Origin: Anaerolineaceae bacterium
Lineage (GTDB): Bacteria > Chloroflexota > Anaerolineae > Anaerolineales > Anaerolineaceae
NCBI GenBank assembly: GCA_016841525.1
Contig: JAENYZ010000003.1
Location: 372,001 to 436,000 of the forward strand
Length of the DNA stretch: 64,000 nucleotides
Direction of reading: 5' to 3'
This document shows positions 32,598 through 55,632 of this stretch, piece by piece. Each line of letters begins with the position of its first letter. Position 1 is the stretch's first letter. The translations under genes and the position numbers were made by a program. A model generated the notes under the pieces. That model did no database searches, was not told the origin of the DNA, and was given only the letters and a program-made list of their open reading frames with translations.

Positions 32598-32669
32598 GGG
32601 CCCGTAGCTCAGCGGCAGAGCAGGCGGCTCATAACCGCTCGGTCGTAGGTTCGAATCCTACCGGGCCCA
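32598..32669 (+). tRNA. tRNA with CAT anticodon (Met type)
   Basis: A complete 72-nt cloverleaf. Acceptor GGGCCCG pairs with CGGGCCC, anticodon stem GGCGG/CCGCT holds CTCATAA (one mismatch at the base), and T arm GTAGG/CCTAC holds TTCGAAT. CCA is not encoded. Anticodon CAT fits Met; a lysidine-modified Ile form cannot be excluded. Its 3' half is the template for the repeats at 37992, 43414, 44767, 46136 and 47453, so it is an integration hot spot. Confidence 0.93.
32635..32656 (+). repeat. Attachment-site core within tRNA-Met
   Basis: This stretch covers the 3' anticodon stem, variable loop and T arm, beginning CCGCTCGGTCG and ending TTCGAAT. It is repeated without change at 37992-38013. Confidence 0.8.
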
Positions 32670-32834
32670 CCTTTTTCAAGTAAATTACACGTAAAGATCA
32701 TTGATTTTACTCATTATTATTGAAGAAATAACTTCTTCAGGTACTAATTTCAGAAAAAAATTACTAATTTTTGTCCTCAAAAATATCGTATAATAAGTAA
32801 TGTCAATAATTAATAACATAACTCAATTATAAAA

Positions 32835-33662
32835 ATGAAAGAAAATCAAGATAGTTTTCGTTATCCGAAAGATATTATATTGGATAAATCTCCCTTAATT
32901 GAAGCTTGGATGGAATTCAGGTGGAAATTGGAAGAGGGGGATTTACCTCATACATTGATTGATAAGAATTACCCTTTTGCCTTAGGTGTTTTCTATAATA
33001 ATGTCAAAGAAAAATTTTCATATCATGAAAAGCTTCCTGCAAGTGATGCACCTGAAGGTTTTTTACCTCACAAAGTTCAACATCGTTTTAGAGTGGGAAA
33101 AAATAAATGGCCAGTTCTACAACTAGGACCTGGTGTTGCATCTGCCAATTTTGTTAAAGATTACACATGGAATAAATTTCATAGTACGATTCTATACCTT
33201 CGTGAAAATTTATTGGAAGCATATAGAAATGATTTGAAACTTGATGGATTATTTCTGCGATATAGAAATGGATTCCCATTCGATTATGAGTCGAAAGACC
33301 CTTTATCATTTTTACAGGATAACCTTAATATTTCAGTAAATTTGCCAAAACATATCCCTGGTTCAATTTCATCAATTGCTCATCCGATAGAATCTCATAT
33401 GGGATTTGTATTTAAATTAGAACGGCCCGTTGGAATTGGTAGAATCTCGATTAATTCCGGAACTTCAAAATTACCTAATAAGTCAGAACAAAAAATTATT
33501 ATATTAGAATTTGAAGTAAAATCAACGGGTTCCAACGCGTTCAAACTAGGTAAAAATGGTGAGTTAGAAGAATGGCTTAATTCTTCACACTCTGCTATTC
33601 ATGAATGGTTCATGTCGTTTATTGATGGACCTTTATATGAAGAATTTTCAGGAGGACAATAA
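32835..33662 (+). CDS. TIGR04255-like family protein
   Basis: A 275-residue protein, AT-rich. The opening LDKSPLIEAWMEFRW, then HRFRVGKNKWPVLQLGPGVASANF and YTWNKFHSTI follow the pattern of the TIGR04255 family, whose function is unknown. No membrane segment or obvious catalytic motif. Its stop overlaps the next start and the GGAGG there lies within its own last codons, so the three genes to 34559 form one operon. First cargo gene after the tRNA. Confidence 0.65.
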   Translation: MKENQDSFRYPKDIILDKSPLIEAWMEFRWKLEEGDLPHTLIDKNYPFALGVFYNNVKEKFSYHEKLPASDAPEGFLPHKVQHRFRVGKNKWPVLQLGPGVASANFVKDYTWNKFHSTILYLRENLLEAYRNDLKLDGLFLRYRNGFPFDYESKDPLSFLQDNLNISVNLPKHIPGSISSIAHPIESHMGFVFKLERPVGIGRISINSGTSKLPNKSEQKIIILEFEVKSTGSNAFKLGKNGELEEWLNSSHSAIHEWFMSFIDGPLYEEFSGGQ

Positions 33663-34027
33663 TGACGACTGCATATCCAGAAATGACGACTGCATATCCA
33701 GAAATTAAAAATCCTTCTATCGAAAATATTTCCTTAGAATTTTTATTTGAATTAATCAGCGCAACAAAATATTTAGCTAATAGAGTAATCACCAGTTCTA
33801 CAGATACCGTGTCTGATGATTTTGAGAATCAAGAATTAGAGATTCTAAATACTCAGTCAAATAAACAAGATACTTTTTTAAGGGATACTTACATCCTTGA
33901 GGAAAATTTGTTCTTGGATCATAGTGTTCAAGCAATCCCAAAAGATCGATTTAAGATCAAATTAAAATTAAAAAATATTGGCAAAGGAAATATTTCTACC
34001 AACCAAGAACTTCTTATAGACTCATAA
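33662..34027 (+). CDS. Small hypothetical protein of the TIGR04255 cassette
   Basis: A 121-residue acidic, soluble protein that I do not recognise. It begins with a tandem repeat of 21 nt (33662-33682 and 33683-33703) that contains the start codon, giving MTTAYPE twice and two possible starts; the first has the better ribosome site (GGAGGA). The body is helical in the middle and ends with alternating beta-like KIKLKLKNIG. It overlaps the upstream stop by 1 nt. Confidence 0.65.
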   Translation: MTTAYPEMTTAYPEIKNPSIENISLEFLFELISATKYLANRVITSSTDTVSDDFENQELEILNTQSNKQDTFLRDTYILEENLFLDHSVQAIPKDRFKIKLKLKNIGKGNISTNQELLIDS

Positions 34028-34034
34028 TTATTCT

Positions 34035-34559
34035 ATGTCTAATTCTTCCAATTGGTACAAATTAGTTCCAAGTGAAACCGAACTAGTCCAAGGCGATTTC
34101 TTGGACAATTTTCCAGTGATTAAATATTCGGGTTCGCATGAAGATGGTACTTATGAAGCAGAAGTTATAGAATATGATATGGTCGTCATGACACAGTCCT
34201 GCGATCTAAATAAAATCCGTCTTAAAAATACATATGATAAATTTGTGATTCTATGTCCTAGATCTAGCTATAAATATGTCCGTGATGAATATGATTGGGA
34301 TTATTTGAGAAAGGGGTTTTTAGTACGAGCTCATCTTCTGGATAAATGCGAAATTGAAAATCAACAATTTGATTACCAGGTAGTTGAGCTTGACCAAATT
34401 TTTTCAGTGCCTTATTCTTCTGTAAGAAAAATAGCAGATCAAAATGATCGGGTTAGACTAGTATCACCATATCGTGAACATCTGTCTCAAGCTTTTGCTA
34501 TCCAATTTATGCGGGTTGGATTACCAGCTGACTTACCAAAAGAAAAGCCTGAAGATTAA
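34035..34559 (+). CDS. Hypothetical protein, third gene of the cassette
   Basis: A 174-residue soluble protein, 7 nt after the previous gene. It has a recognisable core, VIEYDMVVMTQSCDLN, which recurs in small uncharacterised proteins of accessory regions, with a following KFVILCPRS strand. No known catalytic motif. Function unknown; cotranscription with the TIGR04255-like gene suggests a shared role. Confidence 0.65.
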   Translation: MSNSSNWYKLVPSETELVQGDFLDNFPVIKYSGSHEDGTYEAEVIEYDMVVMTQSCDLNKIRLKNTYDKFVILCPRSSYKYVRDEYDWDYLRKGFLVRAHLLDKCEIENQQFDYQVVELDQIFSVPYSSVRKIADQNDRVRLVSPYREHLSQAFAIQFMRVGLPADLPKEKPED

Positions 34560-34575
34560 GAACTTTCATATTTCC

Positions 34576-34995
34576 TCAGATGAATAGCACTAGTTTTCCA
34601 TCCGTCGTATAATTTCTTCTAATAAGGGAATGATATTCCTTTTTATTGATTTTATCTTCTTTCGTAATTATGTTGCTTATTTTATTAATCTCTTTTTGAA
34701 GATCTTCTCTTGAAAGAATTCCGTATATTCCGTCTGTAATGGTTATTGATGAATGCATTAAGTTTTGACTAACTGCTTTTAGTGCAGCAATATCTTTTGC
34801 GTTTTTAATGCCATATACCGCAAATCCATGTCTGAATTTATGTGGTGAATGGTAATTTAGATTTACTTTTTTCATCCAATTTATTAAATCTTTTCTAGCC
34901 CTATGATGTCGATTGTTGCTGAAATTGAGATTTTCTTTATCGAATTCTCCAGTTTCCGGAGAGATATTAGCAAACCAGGGATGATATTCACTCAT
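34576..34995 (-). pseudogene. Tyrosine recombinase, C-terminal remnant
   Basis: A 139-residue remnant with only the second half of the catalytic domain. H52 and R55 (SPHKFRHGF), H81 (NLMHSSIT) and Y91 (DGIYG) match the HxxR, H and Y of the tyrosine integrases. The first catalytic arginine, the core-binding and arm domains are gone, and a stop lies just upstream of the ATG. It was probably the integrase of the surrounding island. Confidence 0.8.
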
Positions 34996-35019
34996 ATTTG
35001 TTTCTTACAATAGCATCTT

Positions 35020-35216
35020 CAACTTTTCGCCCTTCGCCCGTCCCTCCATCTGCCTACCCACTCACTCTCCATATCAAGGCTGCCTTGGCTTGCGCCGCTT
35101 CGCTCAGCAGCCTTGACAATGAGCCTCCGTGAGCGTGAAAAGAGCGGCTGCGGACGGACGACAAAGGCTAATGAAAGAAGCGGAAAAAGTCTCCTCTTGC
35201 GTATAACTCTATACGC
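35020..35216. repeat. GC-rich insert with nested inverted repeats
   Basis: A 200-nt block much richer in GC than its surroundings, starting right behind the integrase remnant. TCAAGGCTGC (35074-35083) and GCAGCCTTGA (35107-35116) form one dyad, GCGTATA (35199-35205) and TATACGC (35210-35216) another. No gene in it is convincing. A recombination site is possible. Confidence 0.5.
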
Positions 35217-35250
35217 ATTTATTATTAGCATAGTAAAGAACAATTAGAAG

Positions 35251-35295
35251 ACCGGTAATACCGGCAACACCGGCAATACCGGCAATACCGGTAAT
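35251..35295. repeat. Five tandem 9-bp repeats
   Basis: Five head-to-tail units of ACCGGYAAY at 35251, 35260, 35269, 35278 and 35287. The two outer units read ACCGGTAAT, the inner ones ACCGGCAAC/T. The array ends 36 nt before the XRE gene and may bind its product. Confidence 0.8.
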
Positions 35296-35331
35296 TCCAT
35301 ACTAAAATATGTATAATGTCAAGGATTAAAA

Positions 35332-35805
35332 ATGAGCAATATTTTCAACATTGTTGAAAATGTGTATCGGCATGAAGAATTTCTAAAGAAATTAATGCAA
35401 AATGAATTGACCATTCCCAACGAGTTCACTATTGAAATGGGAAAGTTAATCAGAGCTGCTCGAGAAGAAGAGGGATTAAGTCAAACGGAATTGGCAGAGA
35501 AATTATCAAAACGCCAGGCGACTATTTCAGATTTTGAAAATGGGAAAATTGAAATTGGAATACTTACCCTTGTTCAACTTGCGATTGTGTTTGGAAAACC
35601 AATCTCATATTTTATTCCTGAGATGACATTCCTGGTCAGCATCAGCGACATTCACAATAAATGGGAAGAAGAGGCATTAGCTTTATTTAGAAGCATGGAA
35701 TATGAGGGAGATCCCCATTTAGCATTAAGATTGTTAAAAACGCTTAATGAATATTTCGATGAGACGCGAGATCAGGAATGGGGAATTCCTGAGGAAGAGA
35801 ATTAA
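35332..35805 (+). CDS. XRE family transcriptional regulator
   Basis: A 157-residue protein with a helix-turn-helix at about 36-90: IRAAREEEGLSQTELAEKLSK followed by QATISDFENGK. The tail (about 100-157) is helical and acidic, with no known sensor domain. It heads the set of four genes up to the GIY-YIG gene and may control it, possibly through the 9-bp repeats just upstream. Confidence 0.88.
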   Translation: MSNIFNIVENVYRHEEFLKKLMQNELTIPNEFTIEMGKLIRAAREEEGLSQTELAEKLSKRQATISDFENGKIEIGILTLVQLAIVFGKPISYFIPEMTFLVSISDIHNKWEEEALALFRSMEYEGDPHLALRLLKTLNEYFDETRDQEWGIPEEEN

Positions 35806-35841
35806 GTTTATTTTCATAACACTTGTAAAGGGAGGTCTATT

Positions 35842-36387
35842 TTGGATCGGAATTTGGTAATTGGTGCAACAATAAGTATAGTATCCTCAACAGTGGGTGC
35901 ATTGATCGCTTATTTGTTTAATAACTTAAACATGAATAAAAAACGAAAATGGGAAATGGAGGATAAGAAAAGAGATATCAGAAAAGAAATATTATTGAGT
36001 AGACTTGAACAATTTGAAAAATTAGTAATTGATTTGGGCAGAAAAATTTCTATTTATGAGAGCTTAATCCACAAGTCTGTTACTTACGAAATGATTGCAG
36101 AAGAACAAATAGATAATAAATTTTCAGAATGGAATGAAAATAGATATCTATTGTCTTATCTAAATTATTTCGGTGACAGTGAACTTTTGGATAATTATTT
36201 TGAATTAATGAAAGAATTTGGTGTGTTACGCGATTTATTTTATGAGTTTGTAAATAAATTGAAGTCTGGGGAGGAAGTTGACTATGATTCATACGAAAAA
36301 AGAAAACCTGGTTCCAAATTTGTAAACCTTTATGCTGATGTCCTAAAAAGAATTGACTACTTGAAAGAACAATATCTTACAAGATAG
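35842..36387 (+). CDS. Membrane-anchored coiled-coil protein
   Basis: A 181-residue protein. One N-terminal membrane helix (about 5-28) is followed by a charged helical region (NKKRKWEMEDKKRDIRK) and further helices. The TTG start is supported by GGGAGG 8 nt upstream. I do not recognise the family. Position between an XRE gene and a modification-sensing nuclease suggests a place in the same defence-like set. Confidence 0.65.
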   Translation: MDRNLVIGATISIVSSTVGALIAYLFNNLNMNKKRKWEMEDKKRDIRKEILLSRLEQFEKLVIDLGRKISIYESLIHKSVTYEMIAEEQIDNKFSEWNENRYLLSYLNYFGDSELLDNYFELMKEFGVLRDLFYEFVNKLKSGEEVDYDSYEKRKPGSKFVNLYADVLKRIDYLKEQYLTR

Positions 36388-36480
36388 GGTTGGGAATAAT
36401 TATCCTAACTAAATTAACTGTTTAATCCGCTTGGTTTCGATATAATATATTCGTAAAATCAACAATATTGGAGGGAAAAT

Positions 36481-37422
36481 ATGGAATTTTGGTGGGTAAA
36501 TCACAAACAAACTTTTGATCAAGAGTTAAGTTACGGTTTTCTCTGGTCCCCAAAAACTAACAGGGATGATTCAAGAAACCAATTTTATATCAATATGACT
36601 ATTATTCAGGAGGGGGATTTAGTTTTCTCTTATTCAGAAGGTGTAATTAAAGCTATAGGATATGTAACCTCAAGAGGAACTGTATCACCCAGACCTGATG
36701 TATTTGGTGATGTTGGAGAGCAATGGAGTAGAGTCGGATGGATTGTTAAAATTGATTGGCTCCTATTAGATAATCCTTTTTCTCCTAAAGACCACATTGA
36801 TAGGATTAGAAATCTTTTGCCTTCAAAATATTCTCCAATAAGATCTTCTGGGGATGGAAATCAAGGATGTTATTTGGCTAGTATCAGCAGTGATTTGGCA
36901 AAGGAACTATTATCTATTTCAGAGAACAAAAAATCGGTGCAGGATTTTTTGGATGAGAAAGAGATCGAGAAAAAAGAGAACGATGAAATTGATAGGATTC
37001 GAACGTCAGATATTGCTGCCACTGAGAAGCAGCAGTTGATCAAAGCTCGAAGAGGACAAGGCTACTTTCGTGAAAACTTAAAAAATATAGAAACTGAATG
37101 TAGATTAACTCACGTCAATAATCATAACCTCTTAATTGCAAGCCATATAAAACCTTGGAGAAACTCAACCGATACCGAAAAACTTGATGGAAATAACGGC
37201 TTATTACTCTCTCCTCATATTGATAAGTTATTTGATAGAGGGTACGTCTCTTTCACGGATGATGGTTTTATTCTAAGAAGTAACCAAGAAGTTGATCAGG
37301 TAATGGAAAAATGGGGATTAGATCCTAACATGAATATTGGTGAATTTAATGACGATCAAAAGAAATATCTCGAGTATCATAGAAATCATATCTTTGAGGC
37401 TGAGTATCTCTTGCAAATGTAG
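36481..37422 (+). CDS. EVE-like/HNH endonuclease, candidate type IV restriction enzyme
   Basis: A 313-residue two-domain protein. The N-terminal part (about 1-145) resembles EVE/PUA-type modified-base readers: FWWVNHKQTF at the start and GDLVFSYSEGVIKAIGYV in the core. The C-terminal part (about 190-300) is an HNH_2-type nuclease: LLIASHIKPWRNS, GNNGLLLSPHIDKLFDRGYVSF. Fusions of a modified-base reader with HNH cut DNA carrying modified cytosine, as foreign phage DNA does. GGAGGG precedes the ATG. The reader assignment is by pattern only. Confidence 0.78.
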   Translation: MEFWWVNHKQTFDQELSYGFLWSPKTNRDDSRNQFYINMTIIQEGDLVFSYSEGVIKAIGYVTSRGTVSPRPDVFGDVGEQWSRVGWIVKIDWLLLDNPFSPKDHIDRIRNLLPSKYSPIRSSGDGNQGCYLASISSDLAKELLSISENKKSVQDFLDEKEIEKKENDEIDRIRTSDIAATEKQQLIKARRGQGYFRENLKNIETECRLTHVNNHNLLIASHIKPWRNSTDTEKLDGNNGLLLSPHIDKLFDRGYVSFTDDGFILRSNQEVDQVMEKWGLDPNMNIGEFNDDQKKYLEYHRNHIFEAEYLLQM

Positions 37423-37514
37423 AATATTCTAATTTATTACTTGGTCTTAAAAAATATCCAAGGTAGATATCGTCTTCTTTCCGCTAAGGTATTGAGAAAT
37501 TGCTAAGGTAATAT

Positions 37515-37913
37515 ATGACTTGGTCAAGAAAATATCAATTATCTAAATACTTAAATGCACCTAAGAAGGCAGGCGTATATATTATTGGAATTCCCAATGG
37601 GTATTTTAGTGAACCTGGAGAAGTAGACAATTTTCTTGGAGAAAATTATCCCGACAATTTTGAACCAATGTATGTTGGTATTTCTAAAAGGTCAATAAGA
37701 AGTAGATTATATTCACATTATAAAGGTAATGGAAATAAACATGTTAGAGATCATATAGAGAAAAATGGGAGTGAAAATATTTTCTTTATATTTGATGAAA
37801 CATTAAAAACAGAAATTGAAGATGTCTTCTTATTCTCTTTGGTAAACGGTTTCCCTTGGAATGTAAAAAGAAGAGAAGAAGGAAATTGGATAAAGTTTAT
37901 TACTAACCTTTAG
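37515..37913 (+). CDS. GIY-YIG domain protein
   Basis: A 132-residue protein consisting of a GIY-YIG nuclease fold: AGVYIIG (in place of GIY), MYVGIS (in place of YIG), the conserved arginine region RSIRSRLYSHY, and a late glutamate in TEIEDVFLF. It may cleave DNA together with the upstream HNH protein. Last gene before the repeated attachment site. Confidence 0.72.
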   Translation: MTWSRKYQLSKYLNAPKKAGVYIIGIPNGYFSEPGEVDNFLGENYPDNFEPMYVGISKRSIRSRLYSHYKGNGNKHVRDHIEKNGSENIFFIFDETLKTEIEDVFLFSLVNGFPWNVKRREEGNWIKFITNL

Positions 37914-37991
37914 TGATTGAGTAATTGATTCTACATAAAACTTATTTGAACTAGTTGTTATTTAGTATCCTCATAGGAATTGCATACTTAT

Positions 37992-38013
37992 CCGCTCGGT
38001 CGTAGGTTCGAAT
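37992..38013 (+). repeat. Exact copy of tRNA-Met 3' half (island right end)
   Basis: Identical over 22 nt to 32635-32656. The bases after it (to 38030) still resemble the tRNA 3' end but have several changes, and the acceptor stem is lost. No D arm or anticodon arm is present, so it is not a tRNA gene. Confidence 0.85.
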
Positions 38014-38056
38014 TCTGACTGGCCCTCATGAAGTAATTATTGGTGGGAAATTATTA

Positions 38057-38151
38057 GCCGTTTTTACCTGTTTTGAACAAAACTTAATAGCAAGATTCAC
38101 TGGTTGTTTTTCTCAGTTAAACTTGGGTGGTTAACATCATCAGAAGCTTGG
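38057..38151. repeat. Flank repeat, copy 1
   Basis: About 95 nt that recur at 47523-47615 at roughly 70 % identity, both directly after a tRNA 3'-end copy. Shared core: TTTTTACC, TGAACAAAA, TTAATAG and CAGTTAA. Confidence 0.7.
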
Positions 38152-39004: not shown

Positions 39005-39919
39005 ATGAGATATTTCAAAAAAAAGGATTACGTTTTCTTATTATTCATTTTATTTATTTTCCCAGTCATAGTAAAAATGCTAATAATCACTATTATCGGA
39101 TGGATCATCAGTTCATTACAACCTAATTATTTGAGGGTTTTCTTAACGAATCAACCTGTAGGAAAAATTATATTTATCAGTTTTTTTGTCCTATTTCCTT
39201 TCTGGGTTATTCCTTCTTTAATTAAAGATGTTAGAAATAAAAGTAATGAAATTAAAAAATTTTTTCAAAACTTAATAAATAGATTAATTAATTTGCTTAA
39301 GTCTTATATTGGACTTGATGATGTTATAGCAATTATTATCGGGATTTTTGGTGGATTATTCTATATTTTGAGAGATAGCCTTTTAAACGATCACGATTTT
39401 TTCATTTTTTACGAACGAATTCATATAGAATTAATAGGAATATCAATAACAGTGCTTATATTAGGGAATGCAAACCAATATACAAGAACAAAAAGCACAA
39501 AGGAAAGGCTCATCCTTCAAATGGGTAGTCCAGATAACGGTTTTGCAAATGATGCTGTTGGACAACTTAGAAGATTGAATTGGCTTATGGATGGAACATT
39601 AAAAAAAGCTAATTTACATAATGCTAATCTTGAATATGTTGATCTAAATCATGCTTTATTAAAAGAAGTAAATTTTAAATTCGCAAACTTGCAAAAATCT
39701 AATTTACAATACGCAAATTTGGAAGATTCAGATTTAAGATTTGCTAACTTAGGCGGAACAGACCTTGCAAGAGCTTTTTTACAAGGCGCAAATCTAGAAC
39801 ATATTAGCTTTGATGAGAACACAAGGTGGTGTTCAATTTATAATAATAAGACTAGGTGGCCAAAAGAATTCAATCCATCTCAACATAATTGCCTTCATGA
39901 AAATAATTATAAGTATTAA
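39005..39919 (+). CDS. Membrane-anchored pentapeptide-repeat protein
   Basis: A 304-residue protein. About four membrane helices (residues about 8-35, 50-72, 105-122, 136-155) precede a cytoplasmic pentapeptide-repeat region (about 195-265) of A(N/D)L-type units such as LKKANLHNANLEYVDL. The end, NTRWCSIYNNKTRWP, is common in this family. The repeats form a right-handed beta helix; function unknown. AT-rich like the rest of the island. Confidence 0.85.
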   Translation: MRYFKKKDYVFLLFILFIFPVIVKMLIITIIGWIISSLQPNYLRVFLTNQPVGKIIFISFFVLFPFWVIPSLIKDVRNKSNEIKKFFQNLINRLINLLKSYIGLDDVIAIIIGIFGGLFYILRDSLLNDHDFFIFYERIHIELIGISITVLILGNANQYTRTKSTKERLILQMGSPDNGFANDAVGQLRRLNWLMDGTLKKANLHNANLEYVDLNHALLKEVNFKFANLQKSNLQYANLEDSDLRFANLGGTDLARAFLQGANLEHISFDENTRWCSIYNNKTRWPKEFNPSQHNCLHENNYKY

Positions 39920-40363
39920 CACTTTACAGTTTTTTATTACAGATGATTTAGATTTATAGATTGAAGAAAATATTATTGTGATTAGGTTAAATATCAATAT
40001 TTCCCTTATTTAAAACCGAAACATAAATAACTTGTATGAGATCGGGATTATGTAAACTTAAATTAAGTAATTAGATTAATTTTAAGCTGAGATCACAAAA
40101 AGATTAGAAGAAAACTATATTTTTTCCAGAAGTTAAATGATTTGCGATTATTTGTAAAGCTGAAATTCTTAATAATTATAAATGGCAAGAATATATTCTC
40201 TTATTTACATGCTTGTTTTTGATCTTTTCTCTGCTCAATCACCTGTTAATAATGACCTAAGATATATAGATCTATAAAAAAATATTGAGTAGTAATTTAA
40301 TGGTGGTATTTTTTTCTTTTTTACATATAGCAAATGAAACTAACTGTGATCTTTAGAGATTAA
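39920..40363. other. Gene-free AT-rich stretch
   Basis: Nothing supportable on either strand. A sharp change of composition at about 40364 marks the end of the AT-rich zone. Confidence 0.5.
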
Positions 40364-40657
40364 TTTGTAGAAAAGGTTTACACTGCGGCAAAACTGCCGT
40401 TGGTACGCTTTCCTGTGCGACGGTCCTATTCGACCTCGGAGCTGGAATCAGTCTTAAACGAGTATCTTGACCCGAATGAAACCACACCACAAACCCAGCC
40501 GGTTATCGCAGAAGCACAAAGCGCATCCCCCCTGTGTCCCAAATGCGGGAGCGAGATGGTGCTGAGAACGGCAAAAAGGGGGGCAAGCCAGGGCGAACAA
40601 TTTTGGGGCTGCCCAAATTATCCCCAATGCCGCGGCACACAAAAATATGAGGCATAG
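40364..40657 (+). pseudogene. C-terminal fragment with topoisomerase-type zinc ribbon
   Basis: The frame is open from 40364 with no good start, and reads straight into protein-like sequence (AAKLPLVRFPVRRSYSTSEL). The last 40 residues form a C4 zinc ribbon, CPKCGSEM...FWGCPNYPQCRG, as found at the end of topoisomerase I and of some nuclease-like proteins. The upstream part is missing, cut where the AT-rich zone ends. It is most likely the severed tail of a larger gene. Confidence 0.65.
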
Positions 40658-41020
40658 GTTGCAGTATATTTTTAGGGTTGGATCCCATTTATAAAATCCA
40701 GGCAAAATTTAATGCCAGAAACCATTCATCCTCCCAACACCCCTTAAAACAATCGTAATAATTCAAATAAAACAGGAATTTTTGTGCTAAAATTAAATTA
40801 GGTCTCCCCAACGACCCTCTCTCCCCAAGGACGCAGGCTTGAATAAGTTGGCAGAATATTGTAGACGTTGAATTTCGATAAGCACCCATTCAGTTTTTTA
40901 TTCTTAAATGGGTCAATTATCAATAATAATGACTGGGGAGCCAAATCCGACCAAAAGGTTGGGTGCATGTTTGCTGACTAATTTATACTGATCATCCAAG
41001 AAATGAACTTAGGAGAAAAA
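40658..41020. other. Gene-free stretch
   Basis: No gene or clear structure seen in about 360 nt ahead of the HhH protein gene. Confidence 0.4.
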
Positions 41021-41848
41021 ATGGACGAAACAAAAATACTAGACTTACTCAACAATGGAAGTCAGGACGAATTGATGGCCTTGCCTGGCATCGGCGACGT
41101 GCTGTCAAACCGCTTGATTGAAGCGCGACCCTTCGACTCAATGGAAGCGGCGCAGACCGTTAATGGCATTAGCGCCAATTTACTGAAGCGGATTGCTGAT
41201 GCCGATGAGGAACCAGAGGCTGATACGTCGGATCCTGCCCTAGATAAACCGGAGCCTGAACCTGGGAAAGGGGACGAAGCCCCGGCCGAATCCCCCTCAA
41301 CCAGTGTCAAAGCAAAGGCCGAGGAAGAAGGCCCAGAGATCAAACAGGTGCAAGCCGCCCCTCAAACCGTGGAAACCCTGCCCAATCAATTTGAGGAAGC
41401 CTCTAAATCTCACGGCTCGCTGTGGACGATCCTGATCAGTAGTGCCATTACTGCTTTGGTCACAATTCTTCTTACACTCGCCGTTCTGGGCGGCATCAAC
41501 GGCAGCCTAAAATTTGCCACAAGCACCCAGGTTCAAACGATGCAGCGGGAGGCTGCCCAATTGTCGACCCGGATAGATACATTCCAGGGTGACCTGGACG
41601 GCTTGCGTGGACGGGTGGACATCCTCGAAGGTCTGGGAGATCGCACAGCGGCGTTGGAGACTGCCCAAGCGCAGCTTGCCGCCGACCAGGAAACACTCAG
41701 CCAACAGGTGACTGATTTACAAACTGAGATCGCTGCACTGAACGAAAAAGTCACCTCGCAGGAAGAACAAACGCAGCGTTTTGAAACCTTCTTCAAAGAC
41801 CTGCAAACCAGCCTTTTCAAATTGTTCACGCCGCAAGGAGACAACTAA
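41021..41848 (+). CDS. HhH-membrane-coiled-coil protein
   Basis: A protein of 275 residues from the ATG at 41021, which has AGGAG upstream; an ATG 18 nt earlier lacks one. A helix-hairpin-helix unit (about 10-60, LMALPGIGDVLSNRLIEA) is followed by a Pro/Glu-rich linker, one membrane helix (about 135-160) and a long coiled coil. The HhH on the cytoplasmic side could touch DNA, the coiled coil lies outside. Start of the next gene overlaps its stop (TAATG). Confidence 0.75.
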   Translation: MDETKILDLLNNGSQDELMALPGIGDVLSNRLIEARPFDSMEAAQTVNGISANLLKRIADADEEPEADTSDPALDKPEPEPGKGDEAPAESPSTSVKAKAEEEGPEIKQVQAAPQTVETLPNQFEEASKSHGSLWTILISSAITALVTILLTLAVLGGINGSLKFATSTQVQTMQREAAQLSTRIDTFQGDLDGLRGRVDILEGLGDRTAALETAQAQLAADQETLSQQVTDLQTEIAALNEKVTSQEEQTQRFETFFKDLQTSLFKLFTPQGDN

Positions 41849-42672
41849 TGAGCGTCGATCCAAAACCAACCCAATCTTTCTGGTCTCGCATGGGACGAGC
41901 TTTTGTCAATATCTTACGCTACCTGCTAATTTTGGCACTGATCGCTGGCGTCGTAGTTGCCATATACTTTGGTGCGCCTTACCTGTACGAAAAATTCATC
42001 CTGCCGATTGAAGCCAATACCGCCCGCCTGGACGAAATTGAAAACAAACAGGCTGCTGATATTGAGCAGCTGACCGGCCAGATTACAGACCTTAAAAGCC
42101 GCCTGGCTGACCTGGAAACCCGCCAGACCACGACCGCTCAGACCCTGGCAGAAGCGCAGGGTGAGATCACTGCTCTGGAATCCGCCCTGCAGTCTCAAAG
42201 CGAAACACTCACACAACTGGATGCTATGCAGGCAACACTGGATACCCTATCCCTCTCCGTCACCGACCATGAATCGCGTTTTGTGGAAGTTAACGATACC
42301 CTGGCTGAGGTGCAGCGTGAGCTTATGTTTAGCCGCGCAATCGAGATGCTTTCCCGCGCACGCCTATACCTCTATGAAAGTAATTTCGGGTTGGCCAGGC
42401 TGGATGTGCAAACTGCACGCGATTTGCTTCTCAGCTTACAAAGTGACATTGCAGCTGATAAAAATGCTACATTGCAAGAAGTCATCACTCGCCTTGACCT
42501 GGCGTTGGATAGCCTGCCCACTTCCCCGGTGATCGCTGTGGACGACGTGGATATCGCCTGGCAGCTGCTGGTCAATGGCCTGCCTGATCTTCCTGCGCCC
42601 ACGCCCTTGCCCGATTCTGTCAACGAAACGCCCATTCCTACAGAGGAAGTTACCCCCACCGAAACACCATGA
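41848..42672 (+). CDS. Membrane-anchored coiled-coil protein
   Basis: A 274-residue protein. One membrane helix (about 22-45), a long coiled coil (about 55-160), a helical domain (about 165-235, SRARLYLYESNFGLARLD) and a Pro/Thr-rich tail. It has the same plan as the preceding protein without the HhH unit, and translation is coupled to it. The pair may form a hetero-oligomer across the membrane. Function unknown. Confidence 0.75.
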   Translation: MSVDPKPTQSFWSRMGRAFVNILRYLLILALIAGVVVAIYFGAPYLYEKFILPIEANTARLDEIENKQAADIEQLTGQITDLKSRLADLETRQTTTAQTLAEAQGEITALESALQSQSETLTQLDAMQATLDTLSLSVTDHESRFVEVNDTLAEVQRELMFSRAIEMLSRARLYLYESNFGLARLDVQTARDLLLSLQSDIAADKNATLQEVITRLDLALDSLPTSPVIAVDDVDIAWQLLVNGLPDLPAPTPLPDSVNETPIPTEEVTPTETP

Positions 42673-42860
42673 TCCTCTCATCAAGAATACAGGGAAACAA
42701 GTAACAATAACAACAGAATCGAGCAAACTCAATCCAGTAGCGATTGAGTCCGAAAATCCCGAAGCTGCTTCATCCCCTCCTCAATCGGGAGGAGCCTGCC
42801 TCTGAATTGGAGTAAACTGCGGCCAAACCTTCACCTGTTCAGACGGAGGGGAAGCCCGAG

Positions 42861-43118
42861 ATGGGACGTTTCAAAAGTATCCTGCGCACAACGCTGATCG
42901 TACTGGCAGTGCTTATAGAACTCAAGACCGTCCATATCGAACTCAAAAACGACAACATCAATCTGGCAGCAAATATGCTGATACGTCTGAATTTGATATT
43001 AACTGGTATGGATAACGACTTGATTACCGCTCAAGCTGACTTGGGACTGCCGTCTATTAATTTGCATCTGCGGAGCCCCTGCCTTTTGGCAAACAATAAT
43101 AGCAGACGGATTTTGTAA
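42861..43118 (+). pseudogene. Possible decayed relative of the coiled-coil gene
   Basis: An 85-residue frame starting MGRFKSILRTTLIVLAVL, a short membrane-like start, followed by a helix with NINLAANMLIRLNLIL that loosely echoes the helical domain of the preceding protein. The surrounding 42673-43130 holds scraps of frame interrupted by stops. Best read as a worn duplicate; weak. Confidence 0.3.
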
Positions 43119-43413
43119 GTTAAAAGCGCTAATTAAAACCTACATTGACTTATTGGGGATTCATCGTGAATAATGACATTTTTCTACATTCGCGTTAGCT
43201 TTGTAACACTATCTTTCGGGTGAAAATTAGTTTGGTCTCAAACCATGTTTAGTCATCTCAGGAACCAAAGACGTTTCGAGTGAGAGAGGTGTTTTTGGGG
43301 CTTAAAGGAAATTCTTGCTTGGAAAGAGGCGAATGGGGTAAGAAGTTATTGTGTTGAGGTTTCTAAATCCGTGTTTCCTACTGAAAATAGTATATTTGGA
43401 TTTGAAATATCAT

Positions 43414-43459
43414 CCGTGCGGTCGTCTGTTTGAATTGCCCCCAGGGCGTACCGGGCCCA
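43414..43459 (+). repeat. Decayed tRNA-Met 3' copy with insertion (c)
   Basis: CCG.GCGGTCGT..GTT.GAAT followed by a 13-nt insert TGCCCCCAGGGCG (43436-43448) and then TACCGGGCCCA (43449-43459), the last 11 nt identical to the tRNA 3' end. The insert replaces the CC that starts the 3' T-stem. Confidence 0.8.
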
Positions 43460-43570
43460 TTGCAATATCCTCTGCTAAATTTTCCAACTAATCGAATTGA
43501 AGTATTTTTCCTTTATCATCTCATAGAAGCGATTTTAAGTATTAAAATAATTTTATGAGGATATGAACTT

Positions 43571-43699
43571 ATGGTGAACAATAACTATAAAGAAAAACCA
43601 ATTGAAAAGCATTTATGGAAAGCCGCCTCACACAGCATAAGGGATGCATGCCTTCAGGCGCATTTTTTGTGCGCAAAAGAATTGACAAAAAAGAGATAG
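43571..43699 (+). CDS. Short frame, possible HsdM N-terminal remnant
   Basis: A 42-residue frame with a start 9-12 nt after a purine-rich site. IEKHLWKAA recalls the first helix of type I restriction methylase HsdM, but the rest does not follow. It ends 9 nt before the P-loop protein gene. Either a gene fragment or a leader; low support. Confidence 0.25.
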   Translation: MVNNNYKEKPIEKHLWKAASHSIRDACLQAHFLCAKELTKKR

Positions 43700-43708
43700 G
43701 GCTTCTTA

Positions 43709-44668
43709 ATGAATACTAATTTGATAATCATTGATGGACATTCATCAGTAGGAAAATCCAGTATTTCAAAGCGTGTATCACAGCAGATCAGCCGCGATCA
43801 TGATGCATATTGGCTGCATGAAGAGTGTGAAAATCATCCAATACGACACAATGAATTCAGCTTTGGGGAATTGGGTACCCTTGAAGGTATGGAACGAAAT
43901 AGAATCGGGATGTTGAATAAGTGGAAGGCATTTAGAGATTCAATAAGCGCATCCGGGAAAGTATGTGTTACTGAAGGATGTTTTTTGCATGCCTATGATC
44001 GGTATTTTATTCATAGTACCTGGAATGAAAATGATATCCTTACCTATTGTTCGCAGGTGTTAGATGCCATAAATGAATTAAATCCCATCATTGTCTTTCT
44101 ATATCGTCCTGATCTGCGGAAAAGCCTGGAAAAAGCATTTATTGCACGGGGTAAATGGTGGCGGGATCTGATGCTAAGAAGAGATGATCAGCATGTGTAT
44201 TTTAAGAATCATGATTTTATAAACGAAAATAGCATGTTTAGCGCTATTGAATATGAACAAATAAAAATGTTGGAGATATTTGACCGATTGAAGTGTTTAA
44301 AGATCAAGATAGACACAAGCGATGAGCAATGGGATGATTATGTTCAGGAAATAATTTCCTTTATTGGTTTAAAGTATAGAAAAGAAAATCCTTATCCGTG
44401 TGATATGAAGCAATTCCTTGGCACGTATCGATGGCAGAATGGCACAGCGGATGATGAGTGGATTATTAAGTATGATGATGCGAATCAATGTTTGTACACT
44501 TCCTTATTTTGGCCCTATATGCCCATGAAATGTATGGCGGATAATGTGTTTGAGTTAATATCATTTCCTGTAGAATTACATTTCCAAAAAATTAAGAATA
44601 ATTTACAGTTTCGTGTCCACGGAAATTATGATTGGGAGTATAACAATCAAATATTCAGCAGGGTGTGA
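43709..44668 (+). CDS. P-loop NTPase/kinase-like protein
   Basis: A 319-residue protein. Walker A GHSSVGKSS at residues 10-18 starts a kinase-like fold (to about 215), with VFLYRPDLRKSLEKAF resembling a lid or nucleotide-binding arginine region. A separate C-terminal domain (about 230-319) begins FLGTYRWQNGTADDEW and looks all-beta. Substrate unknown; a small-molecule kinase is the best guess. It stands with a short frame between two decayed tRNA copies. Confidence 0.65.
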   Translation: MNTNLIIIDGHSSVGKSSISKRVSQQISRDHDAYWLHEECENHPIRHNEFSFGELGTLEGMERNRIGMLNKWKAFRDSISASGKVCVTEGCFLHAYDRYFIHSTWNENDILTYCSQVLDAINELNPIIVFLYRPDLRKSLEKAFIARGKWWRDLMLRRDDQHVYFKNHDFINENSMFSAIEYEQIKMLEIFDRLKCLKIKIDTSDEQWDDYVQEIISFIGLKYRKENPYPCDMKQFLGTYRWQNGTADDEWIIKYDDANQCLYTSLFWPYMPMKCMADNVFELISFPVELHFQKIKNNLQFRVHGNYDWEYNNQIFSRV

Positions 44669-44766
44669 ACTGAGCCTAGTACAGCCTGCGGGCGACGTGT
44701 GGGAATAGTAAAATTTCCAGCCATTTTTGAGTCGAATTCTTTACCTTTCAGGAAATTCAATTTTAT

Positions 44767-44812
44767 CCGTTCGTTAGTAGGGTCGAACTGCCCGAAGGGT
44801 GTATCGGGTCCA
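44767..44812 (+). repeat. Decayed tRNA-Met 3' copy with insertion (d)
   Basis: CCGTTCGTTAGTAGGGTCGAAC, then a 13-nt insert TGCCCGAAGGGTG (44789-44801) at the same place as in the copy at 43414, then TATCGGGTCCA. Directional match is plus strand. Confidence 0.75.
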
Positions 44813-45214
44813 TCTTTCAACAAAAAATCTGTTATTTTCCAAATTACTACTGCTTATTAGTGTAAATTATTTCTTAACCCAGTGTGTTGCTGCAACTTCA
44901 TGTGCTCAATGATTATATTATTTGACGGCCGCTGAAAGATTTATTTATAATATTAACAGTCAAACTCATTATTTTCTTTACTTATAATTTGGTGTCATAA
45001 GTTTTTCCTCTTTAAACTTTCATAATCAAATGGGAGAAATAGATGTCATGAATTTTGATTGTGGGAGGGATGAGAGCATATCAAAGTTCTGGCTGAATAT
45101 CTCAAACGTCATCCGTTAATCGCGTACTTTGTTCTGACCTATCTATTCACCTGGACGCTATTAATAGCGATTCAACCATCTTATCTTGAAGGGCAAAGGT
45201 CTCTGGCCCCTTTT

Positions 45215-46126
45215 ATGGCTCTGGGAATCTTTGGGCCTGCACTGGTAAGTATAGGACTCTCAGCCATCAATAATCCACGTCCCAGGCAAGGCAGCCGTAA
45301 AGCCGCAGTGATTGCATTTATCTTTGCGTGGATTCTTGGCAGCGGGGTTATCCTCCTGAATCTGATTGCTAATAATGAGATGGTTCTGTCCTCGGCTTTG
45401 GTGATCCATAGTGTTCTAACCGGATTACTGCCAGCCTTTGTTGTTTCTTGCATCTTTTCCAGGAAACCAGGTGTTAGAGATCAGCTTCGCACATACAGAA
45501 AGCCGAGGGGAGCCTTCGTTTACTATCTGCTTGCGCTTATTTTATTTCCTGCATTCTGGCTCTTAGGAAATCTCCTTAGCCGTGCTATGGGAATGGATGT
45601 ACCATTAACCAACTATCCTTCGGTGGGGTTCAAGTTCCTGGGGTTTGTGATCCTCTTCTATCTCTATAATCTCATCTTTGGTGGACTTTCTGAGGAACCA
45701 GGCTGGCGAGGGTTTGCCTTGCCGAGACTCCAGGCAAAGTTCAGCCCCCTCGTCTCAAGTCTGATCTTGGGGGTTATTTGGGCAGTTTGGCATGCGCCAG
45801 GGAGATTTGGTGGAATAGAAGCTAAGAGTCTTTCTGATACGCTTGTTGAGTGGGTTCTCATTCTATTTGTGACAGTGATATTCACTTGGCTCTTCAACCG
45901 CACAAAGGGAAGTGTTCTGGTAACAGTGCTGGCTCATCCAGCAATGAACACTACTGGTAATTTTCTCACAGGTTCCTTGGGTGCCCTGATACTCCTCTTT
46001 GTTTTCACGCTATTTGTTATCGTGCTCGATAATATGTGGAAAAGACTGCCTGCTGATGACCCTGCAATCTACCGGGTAAACCCTCAACTGGCTGAAGAAT
46101 CGACTAATGGAGGCGACCTGAATTAG
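45215..46126 (+). CDS. CPBP family intramembrane protease (CAAX-like)
   Basis: A 303-residue polytopic protein. Catalytic motifs are EEPGWRGFALPRLQ and, later, WAVWHAPGRF and HPAMNTTGN. Such proteases act on prenylated or peptide substrates and some give bacteriocin immunity. Clear protein-like sequence continues upstream in frame to about 45077 (YFVLTYLFTW, an extra membrane helix) but has no ATG, GTG or TTG, so the true 5' end may be damaged or use another start. It lies between decayed tRNA copies d and e. Confidence 0.82.
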   Translation: MALGIFGPALVSIGLSAINNPRPRQGSRKAAVIAFIFAWILGSGVILLNLIANNEMVLSSALVIHSVLTGLLPAFVVSCIFSRKPGVRDQLRTYRKPRGAFVYYLLALILFPAFWLLGNLLSRAMGMDVPLTNYPSVGFKFLGFVILFYLYNLIFGGLSEEPGWRGFALPRLQAKFSPLVSSLILGVIWAVWHAPGRFGGIEAKSLSDTLVEWVLILFVTVIFTWLFNRTKGSVLVTVLAHPAMNTTGNFLTGSLGALILLFVFTLFVIVLDNMWKRLPADDPAIYRVNPQLAEESTNGGDLN

Positions 46127-46135
46127 AAACCTTAT

Positions 46136-46195
46136 CCGCTCGGTCGCAGGTTAACTGCAGAAGCAGCCAGCACAGGCGAACCTACCGGGGCCACC
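46136..46195 (+). repeat. Decayed tRNA-Met 3' copy with different insertion (e)
   Basis: CCGCTCGGTCG, then AGGTT, a 24-nt insert in the T loop (about 46153-46176), then CGAACCTACCGGGGCCACC. Here the insert is at another point and of another sequence than in the copies at 43414 and 44767. It starts 10 nt after the CPBP gene stop. Confidence 0.75.
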
Positions 46196-46212
46196 CTGCA
46201 ATTTTGCCTGAG

Positions 46213-47127
46213 TCATTGATAACCGTTTAGTTTCGACCCCAAACCTTTTAGAATATTTGCAGCCTGTTGGCGAGTTTCTACTTGACCAGAAAGAAACTCT
46301 CCAATCAAGGGTCTTACTGTTTTGCCGTCGCCGATTAAAACCCAAACACCGCCATTTCCTGTAATAAGAAGGTCATCATCGGTCAGATTGCTGTTCAAAG
46401 ACTCCAGTGCGCGTTGGCTGCCAATCGTGAAAAGTGAGCCCGCTGCAATCCAGCGCTCAAATTGATCTTCTTCATTCAGTGTGATAATCAAGGGGTCAAC
46501 AGCCTGAGAGGCGCCAATCTCCCCTAAAGCGCCAGCAATCAATCCACGCAATTTGAAACCTTTTTTTAGGAAGTCCATTCCCTTTTGGAAAAGATCAGAA
46601 TAGTTTGGCGTTTTTTCCATATTAAATGTTTTGATAATGAACATCGCATTGTCATCTCTAACAATTTCATTTGTTCTCTGTTCTTTAAGGAGTGAGATGA
46701 GCTGATCCACAGCAGGTGAACCTATCTCGGTTAATACCTCTACAGCAGCTTTATCATCGATTTTATCATTTGATAACCATGACGCAGATTGATCGACGGC
46801 CATTTTGACAGCTGACTCACCCATCCGATTCAATACATTAATACATTTCTTACGGATTGCGCCATTCGTTAGGCCAGCAATTAGTGCTTTTACAGCAGGC
46901 TCACCGATCTTGACGAGGGTTTCAGCGGCACCCACGCTTACAGCCTCATCTTTATCATCGAGCGATTGAATGAGCGGTTCAATGGAGGCAGGCATCAGTT
47001 CGACCAATGCCGACGAGGCAGCTTCAACAACCCCCCGATCTTTCTTATATCCTAATGCCTTTATCAATCCGCCGATGTTTCCTGCAGATCTCAACTTTTC
47101 TACATTCGGTGGTCCAAAAAGTCCCAT
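46213..47127 (-). CDS. HEAT-repeat protein
   Basis: A 304-residue soluble protein of HEAT/PBS-lyase-type repeats, for example AVSVGAAETLVKIGEPAVKALI and LRGLIAGALGEIGASQAVDPLI. Such alpha solenoids are binding scaffolds. It is the only minus-strand gene of this zone and sits between tRNA copies e and f. GGAG lies upstream of its ATG. Confidence 0.85.
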   Translation of the reverse strand: MGLFGPPNVEKLRSAGNIGGLIKALGYKKDRGVVEAASSALVELMPASIEPLIQSLDDKDEAVSVGAAETLVKIGEPAVKALIAGLTNGAIRKKCINVLNRMGESAVKMAVDQSASWLSNDKIDDKAAVEVLTEIGSPAVDQLISLLKEQRTNEIVRDDNAMFIIKTFNMEKTPNYSDLFQKGMDFLKKGFKLRGLIAGALGEIGASQAVDPLIITLNEEDQFERWIAAGSLFTIGSQRALESLNSNLTDDDLLITGNGGVWVLIGDGKTVRPLIGEFLSGQVETRQQAANILKGLGSKLNGYQ

Positions 47128-47452
47128 GATGTCACTCCTTTTATTGTTTAGTTGATTTTGAATTGCGACACATGCTTACTCAGCTGCATCTGAAGCGTAA
47201 GTCATAATAATATGACTTGAATCCCTATTTGTTTTCAAAGGACTTGATCAACTTATAAATTATCGGGAGCAATTAATAAAGGTATGAAATGTTTCAGGTG
47301 GTTAATAATATTGTGGGTTGATAGAACATCCTATCACGAGAGCATGAGAAATTGATAAATTGCACGAGCCCATGGCGCATTGGTTTGATCTAAGTAGAAT
47401 ATGCTGGATATTATAATGCAATTATATATCCTTTTAGGATTAGATCTTATAT

Positions 47453-47507
47453 CCGCTTGGTCGTAAACTCGAACTGCCCCCCCGAGGGAGGGTGTAACGG
47501 GCACACC
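47453..47507 (+). repeat. Decayed tRNA-Met 3' copy with insertion (f)
   Basis: CCGCTTGGTCGTAAACTCGAAC, a 20-nt insert starting TGCCC and ending GGGTG (47475-47494) at the same place as in copies c and d, then TAACGGGCACACC. Confidence 0.75.
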
Positions 47508-54368: not shown

Positions 54369-55271
54369 ATGAAAGTATTAGTGACAGGCGGTACCAATGG
54401 AATGGGAAAAGGCGTCGCAAAAGTTTTAGCCGGAAGTGACAATCGTATCCATGAAATTATCATTTTGTGCAGGTCTGAAGAACGGGGCCAAGCTGCCATC
54501 AAAGAATTTGAAGAGAGCACTAAAAACAATAATATTTCTATGGTTTTATGTGATCTTACTAAACTTCAGGACGTTCGAAATGCAATCAAAGAGATTCGCA
54601 GTCAGCACGCTTTTCTGGACGGGATATTTATCAACGCCGGTTTGGGTTACGCTGCTGAGCGCGTTGAAACTGAAGATGGCATGGATCCGCATTTCCAGGT
54701 GAATTATTTATCTCAATTTATGCTGACTTTAAATTTGCTGGACTTGTTGGAGAAATCCGATAAGGGCGGAAGGGTGATCTTCAATGTAACTGAGGGGGGT
54801 GAAATTTTCTGGGACGACATGCAAATGAAGGAAAATTGGAGTTATGAAAATGGCATTCATCAAGCAATGCTCGCTAAAAGAATGTTTTGTGACCGTTTGC
54901 ACAATTTCTACAGGAAAATAGAAGATCCGAAGGTATCTTTTATTGGATTTGAAATAGCGAAGACTGTGTGGACCAATCAAATTAATATTATTCCACTCCC
55001 TATGAAAGTCATGGCTAATGTGATGAAGCTTTTTGGCACATTTATTTCAATTGAGGAATGCGGGAGGATCATGTCCCCGTTGTTCACGGAAAGCCAGGAA
55101 GAGAGTTTGAAGAAGTCTGGAAAATTTCTCACATGGAAAAAGAATCAGTTCATTGAGATTGAGCAAGGTAATGATGTGCTTGACAAAGAAAAGCAGGATA
55201 AACTCTGGAACATCAGCCTGGAATTGTGTAATGACGAAAAAACAACTCAAATTGCCGAGAGATTTGGATGA
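54369..55271 (+). CDS. SDR family protein lacking the YxxxK pair
   Basis: A 300-residue Rossmann protein. VTGGTNGMGKGVAKVL binds the dinucleotide and FINAGLGY is the NAG-type motif. Where SDR enzymes have a serine and YxxxK, this one has FNVTEGG and a GIHQAMLAKRMF segment with no tyrosine four before a lysine. It may have lost reductase activity, or use other residues. GGAG stands upstream of the ATG. Confidence 0.75.
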   Translation: MKVLVTGGTNGMGKGVAKVLAGSDNRIHEIIILCRSEERGQAAIKEFEESTKNNNISMVLCDLTKLQDVRNAIKEIRSQHAFLDGIFINAGLGYAAERVETEDGMDPHFQVNYLSQFMLTLNLLDLLEKSDKGGRVIFNVTEGGEIFWDDMQMKENWSYENGIHQAMLAKRMFCDRLHNFYRKIEDPKVSFIGFEIAKTVWTNQINIIPLPMKVMANVMKLFGTFISIEECGRIMSPLFTESQEESLKKSGKFLTWKKNQFIEIEQGNDVLDKEKQDKLWNISLELCNDEKTTQIAERFG

Positions 55272-55413
55272 ATCTGAATTTGTGGAAAATTTAGTACAGT
55301 GGTGGTGTAATATTTGCTTGGACCCGACGCACTTTGCTTACATGTTATGCAAACCCCTGGTATAAAATTATGCTCAGATAAACTATGGAACGTAAGCTAA
55401 CAGAAATTAGGCT

Positions 55414-55632
55414 GTTATACACTCGGTCATAGATTTGTATATCTCGTGGAACTTGCTGGGTTCAAGTGATATTATTTTAAGGGTGATTTCTACCAGTTGG
55501 AATTAATTTACCCTTTTTAAGGGATCAGAATTAGAAAAAGGAAAAGCCATAGACCCATCAAATAATTACGCTGTCGAAGCATATAAAAAATATTATGTCA
55601 ACCGCGATTATGAACAGGTTGATTTATGGCGC
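55414..55632. other. Open but startless region before methyltransferase-like gene
   Basis: From about 55507 the frame of the next gene is open and protein-like (DPSNNYAVEAYKKYYVNRDY) but holds no standard start. A faint tRNA-like match (CACTCGGTCATAG) at 55420 is too weak to call. Confidence 0.4.

Follow-up and report, generated by a model that had tools for sequence, protein, structure and literature searches.

Tandem gene modules, probably mobile, at a tRNA-Met gene of an Anaerolineaceae genome and its relatives

tRNA-Met and its downstream copies

The window analyzed here is the whole 64,000-nucleotide stretch of contig JAENYZ010000003.1 taken from the 3.2 Mb genome of Anaerolineaceae bacterium (GCA_016841525.1). 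It contains a tRNA-Met gene followed downstream by copies of the 3' part of that gene at 37992, 43414, 44767, 46136 and 47453 (n = 5), all on the + strand, as is the tRNA, and small groups of genes lie between these copies. The window and its relatives were compared as assemblies; relative genomes carry G numbers and fetched loci L numbers (L013 is from G011, L014 from G013 and L058 from G010), and W marks the window. A preliminary description of this DNA had listed the copy at 37992 as exact and the other four as decayed copies in the tRNA orientation. The other four were recovered as described, and the exactness of 37992 holds for its core, which is identical to the tRNA over 22 nt from CCG, while its 3' part is decayed.

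The copies exceed what random sequence produces. When a 23-nt core was scanned along both strands of the window, the tRNA and its five copies were the six best matches (18–23 of 23 positions, all on the + strand), and the top score in first-order Markov simulations (n = 60) was never above 17. The next real match, at 55417, scores 17/23 and is within the chance range on that score. With up to two mismatches allowed, the 20-mer CCGCTCGGTCGTAGGTTCGA occurs in the genome only within the window, once in tRNA-Met (32635) and once at 37992. A first profile was trained on tRNA-Met and four copies, with copy 46136 left out of the model; the E values of the four (8e-14, 1.4e-13, 3.6e-12 and 3.6e-9) reflect a match by construction because these copies trained it, and the untrained 46136 was found at E = 0.0058.

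Copies 43414, 44767 and 47453 carry an insert of the same kind at the same point of the T arm, as had been noticed before. The inserts, TGCCCCCAGGGCG in 43414, TGCCCGAAGGGTG in 44767 and a longer one in 47453, measure 13, 13 and 20 nt, and each follows TYGAAY. The insert of 46136 is different: it is 24 nt long and begins two bases into the T loop. In the window's own genome, a strict insert pattern matched only 44767 and 47453, and it missed 43414 by one base. The insert-bearing form as another intact tRNA type of this genome was rejected, as the strict pattern is confined to the chain. The coordinates and domain matches of the P-loop, CPBP protease and HEAT-repeat genes agree with the earlier statement that the copies bracket them (Table 1).

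Table 1. Features of the window, with attachment (att) sites, elements and cassettes as candidate assignments (R3, right-end model; ORF, open reading frame)
Feature	Position	Strand	Basis
tRNA-Met (CAT), probable integration target and chain anchor	32598..32671	+	ARAGORN; tRNA-Met anchors relatives' chains too
Element remnant, decayed, formerly integrase-bearing, with other genes	32672..36427	+	Integrase fragment and XRE region similar to G011
Element right end with non-tRNA right half (TTTCGATA...)	36398..36435	+	R3 E 0.006 in fetched loci; aligns with similar sites
Cassette: HNH endonuclease (36481-37422) and GIY-YIG-like ORF (37515-37913)	36481..37913	+	HNH_2 E 1.8e-11; GIY-YIG E 0.001, below cutoff
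att site: element right end and tRNA 3' half (exact core, decayed tail)	37963..38029	+	
att site, type I insert 43436-43448	43385..43460	+	
Cassette gene: P-loop protein, PRK06761-like (below cutoff)	43709..44668	+	AAA_16 E 6e-4, below cutoff
att site, type I insert 44789-44801	44740..44813	+	
Cassette gene: CPBP intramembrane protease	45215..46126	+	Pfam Rce1-like E 7.8e-17
att site, type II insert 46153-46176 in T loop; left edge overlaps CPBP gene end	46111..46200	+	R3 E 7.5e-5
Cassette gene: HEAT-repeat protein	46213..47127	-	Pfam HEAT_2 E 3.1e-18
att site, 20-nt type I insert 47475-47494; right flank is the sequence directly after tRNA in G006	47424..47506	+	
SDR gene	54369..55271	+	84% DNA identity to first post-tRNA cassette of G013
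att site, decayed, after SDR gene	55390..55428	+	R3 E 0.004 in fetched loci, 0.049 genome-wide; weak alone

Two further observations were made in the window. A short run of ACCGGYAA-like repeats stands at 35255-35300, ahead of the XRE gene. At 62734-63998 there are two tandem methyltransferase-like genes with 68% DNA identity, which have matches in G006.

Right ends, arrays and inserts in relatives

On its left, the tRNA-like part is flanked by conserved, non-tRNA sequence common to the sites, TATAGCC-N5-GGAAT-N8-TATCCGCTYGGTC. The alignment of 35 chosen sites has a one-base gap in two rows, and its GGA bases are present in 34, 32 and 35 of the 35. The right-end model built from this alignment (R3) contributes the two weaker window sites, 36398 and 55390, the former of which is not among the listed genome-wide right-end matches. 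In the window's own genome, all five matches with E < 0.01 and site 44740 (E = 0.011) fall within the chain, and the weaker ones are 55390 and a match on another contig (E = 0.031). Tandem arrays with unrelated small genes were found in relatives, and the sites of the own genome are not scattered.

The first profile has matches at E ≤ 1 in 13 of the 16 genomes of the genus, in many of them through the tRNA gene itself. Further copies stand just 3' of the same tRNA in G011, G013, G012, G007, G004 and G003, and in G010 with a second model. The right-end model matches 28 of 147 genomes of the family at E ≤ 0.05, the weakest being uncertain, and 29 of 400 genomes of the order at E ≤ 0.001, 12 of which are outside the family (loci were fetched for 8 of these 12). 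In a phylum sample it matches 3 of 400 genomes at E ≤ 1e-4, all of the own family and one of them the own genome. Judged from these matches, right ends are known across several families of one order. A viral or plasmid origin was considered and rejected. Neither the exact right-end pattern nor relatives of the recombinase described below were found in viral contigs; in plasmids the recombinase has three remote matches, 24–31% identical.

The sites are arranged with a strong orientation bias. Of 36 sites at the 16 loci where a tRNA-Met was called, 35 lie downstream on the tRNA strand, and neighbouring sites within 6.5 kb have the same orientation in 30 of 31 pairs. The single exception to both counts is a match inside a Rep gene (L103:5156), which is probably a chance match. 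Among the 28 pairs that lie on one strand and are separated by over 200 bp, the median spacing is 1.36 kb. As the loci were fetched on the strength of hits, they are no measure of array frequency, and the orientation counts are unaffected by this choice. In G006, the right flank of 47453 directly follows an intact tRNA without an insert (87% identity over 115 nt), with more matches rightward in the same order; this assembly displays the arrangement without modules.

Across the fetched loci, 72 sites were tallied at E ≤ 0.05. This tally leaves out sites found with other models (L013:12007, L022:1380, L051, L064, L067 and some in L058), and L014:3364 and L077:7139 are doubtful. A script divided the right halves into 21 plain tRNA 3' halves, 14 tRNA halves with one insertion, whose score was reached by 0 of 300 random stretches, and 37 others; W47453, L016 and L060 fell just under the score and were scripted as other though insert-bearing by eye, and the counts were kept. 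Given the plain halves, the several kinds of insert and two counterparts beside an intact tRNA that lack one, the insert is not simply the altered att site of the family that had been proposed earlier.

Some junctions hold no tRNA sequence, being of the TTTCGATAAGC type (L070, L074, L059; similar in L103) or the TCATGAG type (L071, L072, L050), and cassettes can therefore adjoin head to tail without a tRNA piece (G126, G373). In the window, the left-end motif of the tRNA-less junctions, TTTCGATAAGC, here with ACCC after it, occurs at 40873-40883 ahead of an HHH-domain gene at 41003, with no recognised right end. In L102, L107 and L108, from another family (f8), right ends are followed by CCGCCACCGAAGGGCAGGCTGCAGG-like sequence, and the insert lies in the variable-loop region, not the T arm. 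A chain in G010 (L058:8560-16520) lies about 30 kb from the tRNA, and three of its sites are joined to similar sequence, readable as the 3' end of a reverse-strand gene, as if the cassettes were paralogous.

The cargo consists mostly of one or a few unrelated genes, many without a Pfam match. CPBP proteases, DUF4386, SDR, GNAT, APH-like, HEAT, P-loop, HNH, GmrSD_N with HNH, NYN and TPR proteins were seen, and part of the cargo is defence-like (GmrSD-type, HNH, OLD-like). Modules with a single ORF between sites about 0.8–1.5 kb apart recur, and longer intervals exist, such as 5.4 kb at 37992-43385. A DUF4386 gene stands between sites in G011 and in G217, which belongs to another family; the two proteins are 74% identical, and the genes have opposite orientations relative to the sites. 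Part of the window HNH gene matches G012 DNA adjoining a site there. The P-loop gene has a 79% identical stretch in G013, between sites 4630 and 17450, outside any short cassette.

T-arm inserts recur in relatives. Type I (GAAYTRCCC..AGGGCG before TACCGGG) was recognized by eye at 13 sites in nine genome bins; one of these sites, on a contig binned in G153, carries the flank of 47453, and that contig may have strayed into the bin from the genus of the window. Type II, inside the T loop, occurs in W46136, G120, G126 and G128, with less similar forms in G160 and G148, and an identical 25-nt form is present in G120 and at two places in G128, one of them a complete tRNA gene. The strict insert pattern with zero mismatches, which is too strict for diverged forms, found nothing in 80 relatives; of the 147 family genomes, 2 matched a zero-mismatch pattern for type II and 1 matched one for type I, counts that the strictness of the patterns limits. 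In G110, an intact tRNA gene is preceded, at a distance of 119 bp, by another complete one that bears a type I insert, and the G127 counterpart of the insert-bearing tRNA of G128 is intact. Gain of the insert in an already redundant copy, with copying between sites, would fit these sequences because the G006 and G127 counterparts beside an intact tRNA lack it.

The two complete tRNA-Met genes that carry inserts, at L061:6614 (minus strand) and in L064 near 1343, have hairpin-like forms in the T arm, and in the acceptor stem of the L061 gene one change is compensatory. These features prompted the idea of an intron within the T loop of a functional tRNA, which is not favoured because both genomes also carry an intact tRNA-Met.

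Exchange point, recombinase element and proposed assembly

We examined 31 alignment pairs that run into a site for the position where similarity ends. In all five pairs with clearly different right-half classes, as assigned by eye, it ends precisely with base 10 of CCGCTYGGTC. Two of these alignments are long, at 1786 and 174 nt, and the examples include G011 L013:8807-10562 with G013 L014:15675-17459 (88.7% identity) and L014:4466-4639 with 18338-18508. In 22 other pairs, whose halves are of the same or a tRNA-like class, similarity runs on to offset 15 or beyond. The tRNA and the right end have only ATAA(T)CCGCTYGGTC in common, so the exchange must fall there, and AACCGC-TTGGTC-GCAGGTT is the putative recombinase core. 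The shared right end, the tandem arrays in relatives and these sharp exchange points give good support to the earlier suggestion that one element family adds small cargo at its own att sites.

An intact recombinase element was found in G011, where 5.4 kb between the tRNA and the first copy encode a tyrosine recombinase (PF00589, E = 6.7e-9), a small protein with a weak helix-turn-helix (HTH) match, Rep_trans (PF02486, E = 1e-12) and an XRE-type HTH protein. A C-terminal integrase fragment in the window (34576-34995, - strand) shares 56% identity over 137 aa with the intact integrase of G011, and the region of the window XRE gene (35332-35805) shows 83% DNA identity to G011. By these similarities the first window module is a decayed relative of the G011 element, with the recombinase fragment and the XRE gene remaining. 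Another contig of the own genome bears a remote recombinase homologue (32%, one stop). At E ≤ 1e-20, 40 of 147 family genomes have homologues; at 13 loci around homologues, tRNA-Met was called at 7, tRNA-Asn at 2 and no tRNA at 4.

The clearest case of an element with cassettes is G373, from another family, whose recombinase is 61% identical and lies with a Rep_trans homologue at tRNA-Met. The order there is tRNA-Met, two other genes, recombinase, Rep_trans homologue, HTH-like gene (by eye), OLD-like gene and right end, followed by a one-gene cassette, a right end, another one-gene cassette and a last right end that runs into a plain tRNA 3' half.

The chain is probably a tandem array of mobile modules at tRNA-Met, composed of a tRNA-Met-specific recombinase element and recombinase-less cassettes of one or a few genes in an integron-like layout. 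We propose that the tyrosine recombinase of an integrative element bearing Rep_trans would join two half-sites within CCGCTYGGTC, one being the right end of a module and the other the right half of a site already in place. In the case of the tRNA, the old 3' half would be displaced downstream as attR, and the tRNA would stay intact because the incoming module brings a new 3' half. More modules, often with one or two genes and no recombinase, would join in tandem at the tRNA or at a redundant site, probably by the recombinase acting in trans. The product would be the tRNA, then modules in one orientation, then a final tRNA 3' half. The window array would now be largely fossil because its recombinase has decayed. 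T-arm inserts would occupy half-sites freed from making a tRNA; they should ruin tRNA function yet lie outside the putative core, and because of this position they need not stop recombination.

Several points weigh against this proposal. Trans action is an assumption because 8 of 11 family genomes with at least two right ends on one fetched stretch lack a recombinase match (E ≤ 1e-20), and neither excision nor integration was observed, as the material is assemblies only. Three pairs with type III halves end at offsets 8, 10 and 11, and L013:15184 paired with L070, a decayed unclassed half, runs to offset 18–19; moreover, the filter kept only alignments reaching the core, so breaks to its left could not show. 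The training set of the right-end model includes 34 of the 72 tallied sites. Several right-half classes are described without explanation, and sites often have the T stem of their host tRNA, with exceptions in G046, G153 and a few decayed sites. A more diverged form of the post-tRNA flank of G006 follows 37992 as well; this flank may therefore be the end of a module instead of ancestral chromosome. The family of tRNA-Met site-specific modules is real and larger than the preliminary description saw, and the recurrence of hairpin-like T-arm inserts is the part that the proposed assembly leaves unexplained.

Other readings of the chain were weighed against the same data. Chance similarity or ordinary tRNA pseudogenes can draw on 46136 and 55417, which are weak when taken alone, but the simulations, the orientation bias and a right end conserved across several families yet absent from tRNA make this reading hardly credible. 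A more serious competitor, though we consider it unlikely, is plain accretion, in which each module entered at the tRNA as a full integrative element and later lost its recombinase by deletion, as in cis-mobilizable elements (CIMEs), small size being a product of decay. CIME accretion is established according to the account in PMC5704250, decay of an integrase element is evident in the first window module, and G011 has an element followed by recombinase-less modules. However, the recurring one-ORF modules at short spacing and the DUF4386 gene lying between sites in two families in opposite orientations speak against it, and the tRNA-less junctions (L070, L059, L103) require something beyond repeated insertion at the tRNA.

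Two further readings concern the inserts. They could define a separate class of half-site, unfit for a tRNA, that confines its carriers to redundant array sites and spares the tRNA. The position of the insert just 3' of the putative core, the type I form spread over nine bins and the identical 25-nt type II insert at three places in G120 and G128 speak for such a class, but the comparisons of G006 with the window and of G127 with G128 pair the same right flank with an intact half beside the tRNA, which fits gain after displacement, and we rate a separate class as rather improbable. Alternatively, the sites might recombine as folded single strands, as integron attC does, and the inserts would then be their variable terminal loops; this appears very unlikely. 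A GATAAG-N-CTTATC-like inverted repeat lies right of the exchange point in 6 of the 37 other halves versus 14 of 3000 random 42-mers, a count that is not an independent test because the pattern was drawn after seeing several sites. Against folding, 1 of 18 stretches (L061, z -2.36) clearly beats its shuffles when folded as DNA, in a comparison run without a real attC as control, and no covariation was found, as the score was reached by 255 of 500 shuffles for the right end and by 493 of 500 for the type I hairpin. Pairing in both exceeds that of slid versions, as conserved sequence would give. With no covariation and 17 of 18 foldings not clearly above shuffles, no structural role is shown for the inserts.

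Comparison with known systems

Dehalococcoides belongs to Chloroflexota, and its ssrA islands are, with CIME accretion and the islands that have tRNA repeats or targets, the nearest published systems to the arrays described here. As outlined in PMC3146451, these islands are tandem, bounded by repeats of an RNA-gene 3' end with a 15-bp motif just upstream, and 15 of 31 are without an integration module. The present arrays share the tandem modules, the RNA-gene 3'-end boundaries, the conserved upstream motif and the members without integration genes. They differ in that the islands of that account use the serine recombinase DsiB and tmRNA, while a PF00589 tyrosine recombinase and tRNA-Met are found here, and in that modules here often hold one gene, some junctions lack RNA-gene sequence and half-sites carry T-arm inserts (PMC3146451).

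Among the flexible islands of other bacteria, the additive islands of Methylophilaceae have recurring tRNA ends (tRNA-Lys in that case) and variable genes (PMC10872708), and the tRNA-located cassettes of Alteromonas likewise combine a tRNA target with variable genes (PMC4119200). Unlike either as described in these sources, the arrays here have a common element end and an exchange point. Accretion of CIMEs and integrative and mobilizable elements, in the account of PMC5704250, also places tandem elements between att sites, including at tRNA 3' ends, and some lack an integrase; the recombinase-less modules here differ by having a common right end across several families and often one gene. The features that mark the CIME type were found here as a tyrosine recombinase beside the tRNA (G011; a fragment only in the window) and an intact tRNA-Met with downstream 3' halves.

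The textbook example of how bacteria gather single genes is the integron. No integron-like, tRNA-anchored cassette array with a tyrosine recombinase was found described in the open-access literature, among the matches listed and judged by title and the start of the abstract. The Acinetobacter plasmid dif modules, as presented in PMC6449649, resemble the cassettes in being small gene modules between sites with the recombinase encoded elsewhere; their sites are Xer sites on plasmids, in contrast to the tRNA-derived half-site on chromosomal contigs here. With integron cassettes, as portrayed in PMC4119200, the modules have in common small size, one orientation, tandem order and a recombination site ending each. 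They differ in that the recombinase is not an integron integrase (the G011 recombinase scores 22.9 bits with model TIGR02249 against a cutoff of 265, and three other tested recombinases were not listed), in the tRNA anchor and in that no folded attC was shown. We tentatively raise the possibility that several families of one order hold an integron-like gene capture of independent origin, with a tRNA-Met anchor and a phage-type tyrosine recombinase, in which free one-gene cassettes would be caught at a displaced tRNA half and the inserts would spoil the tRNA but not recombination. If true, this would be a second assembly for cassette capture, made from an ordinary tRNA and a phage-type recombinase, and such capture could arise repeatedly. 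The right end and core provide a defined sequence for finding more such arrays.

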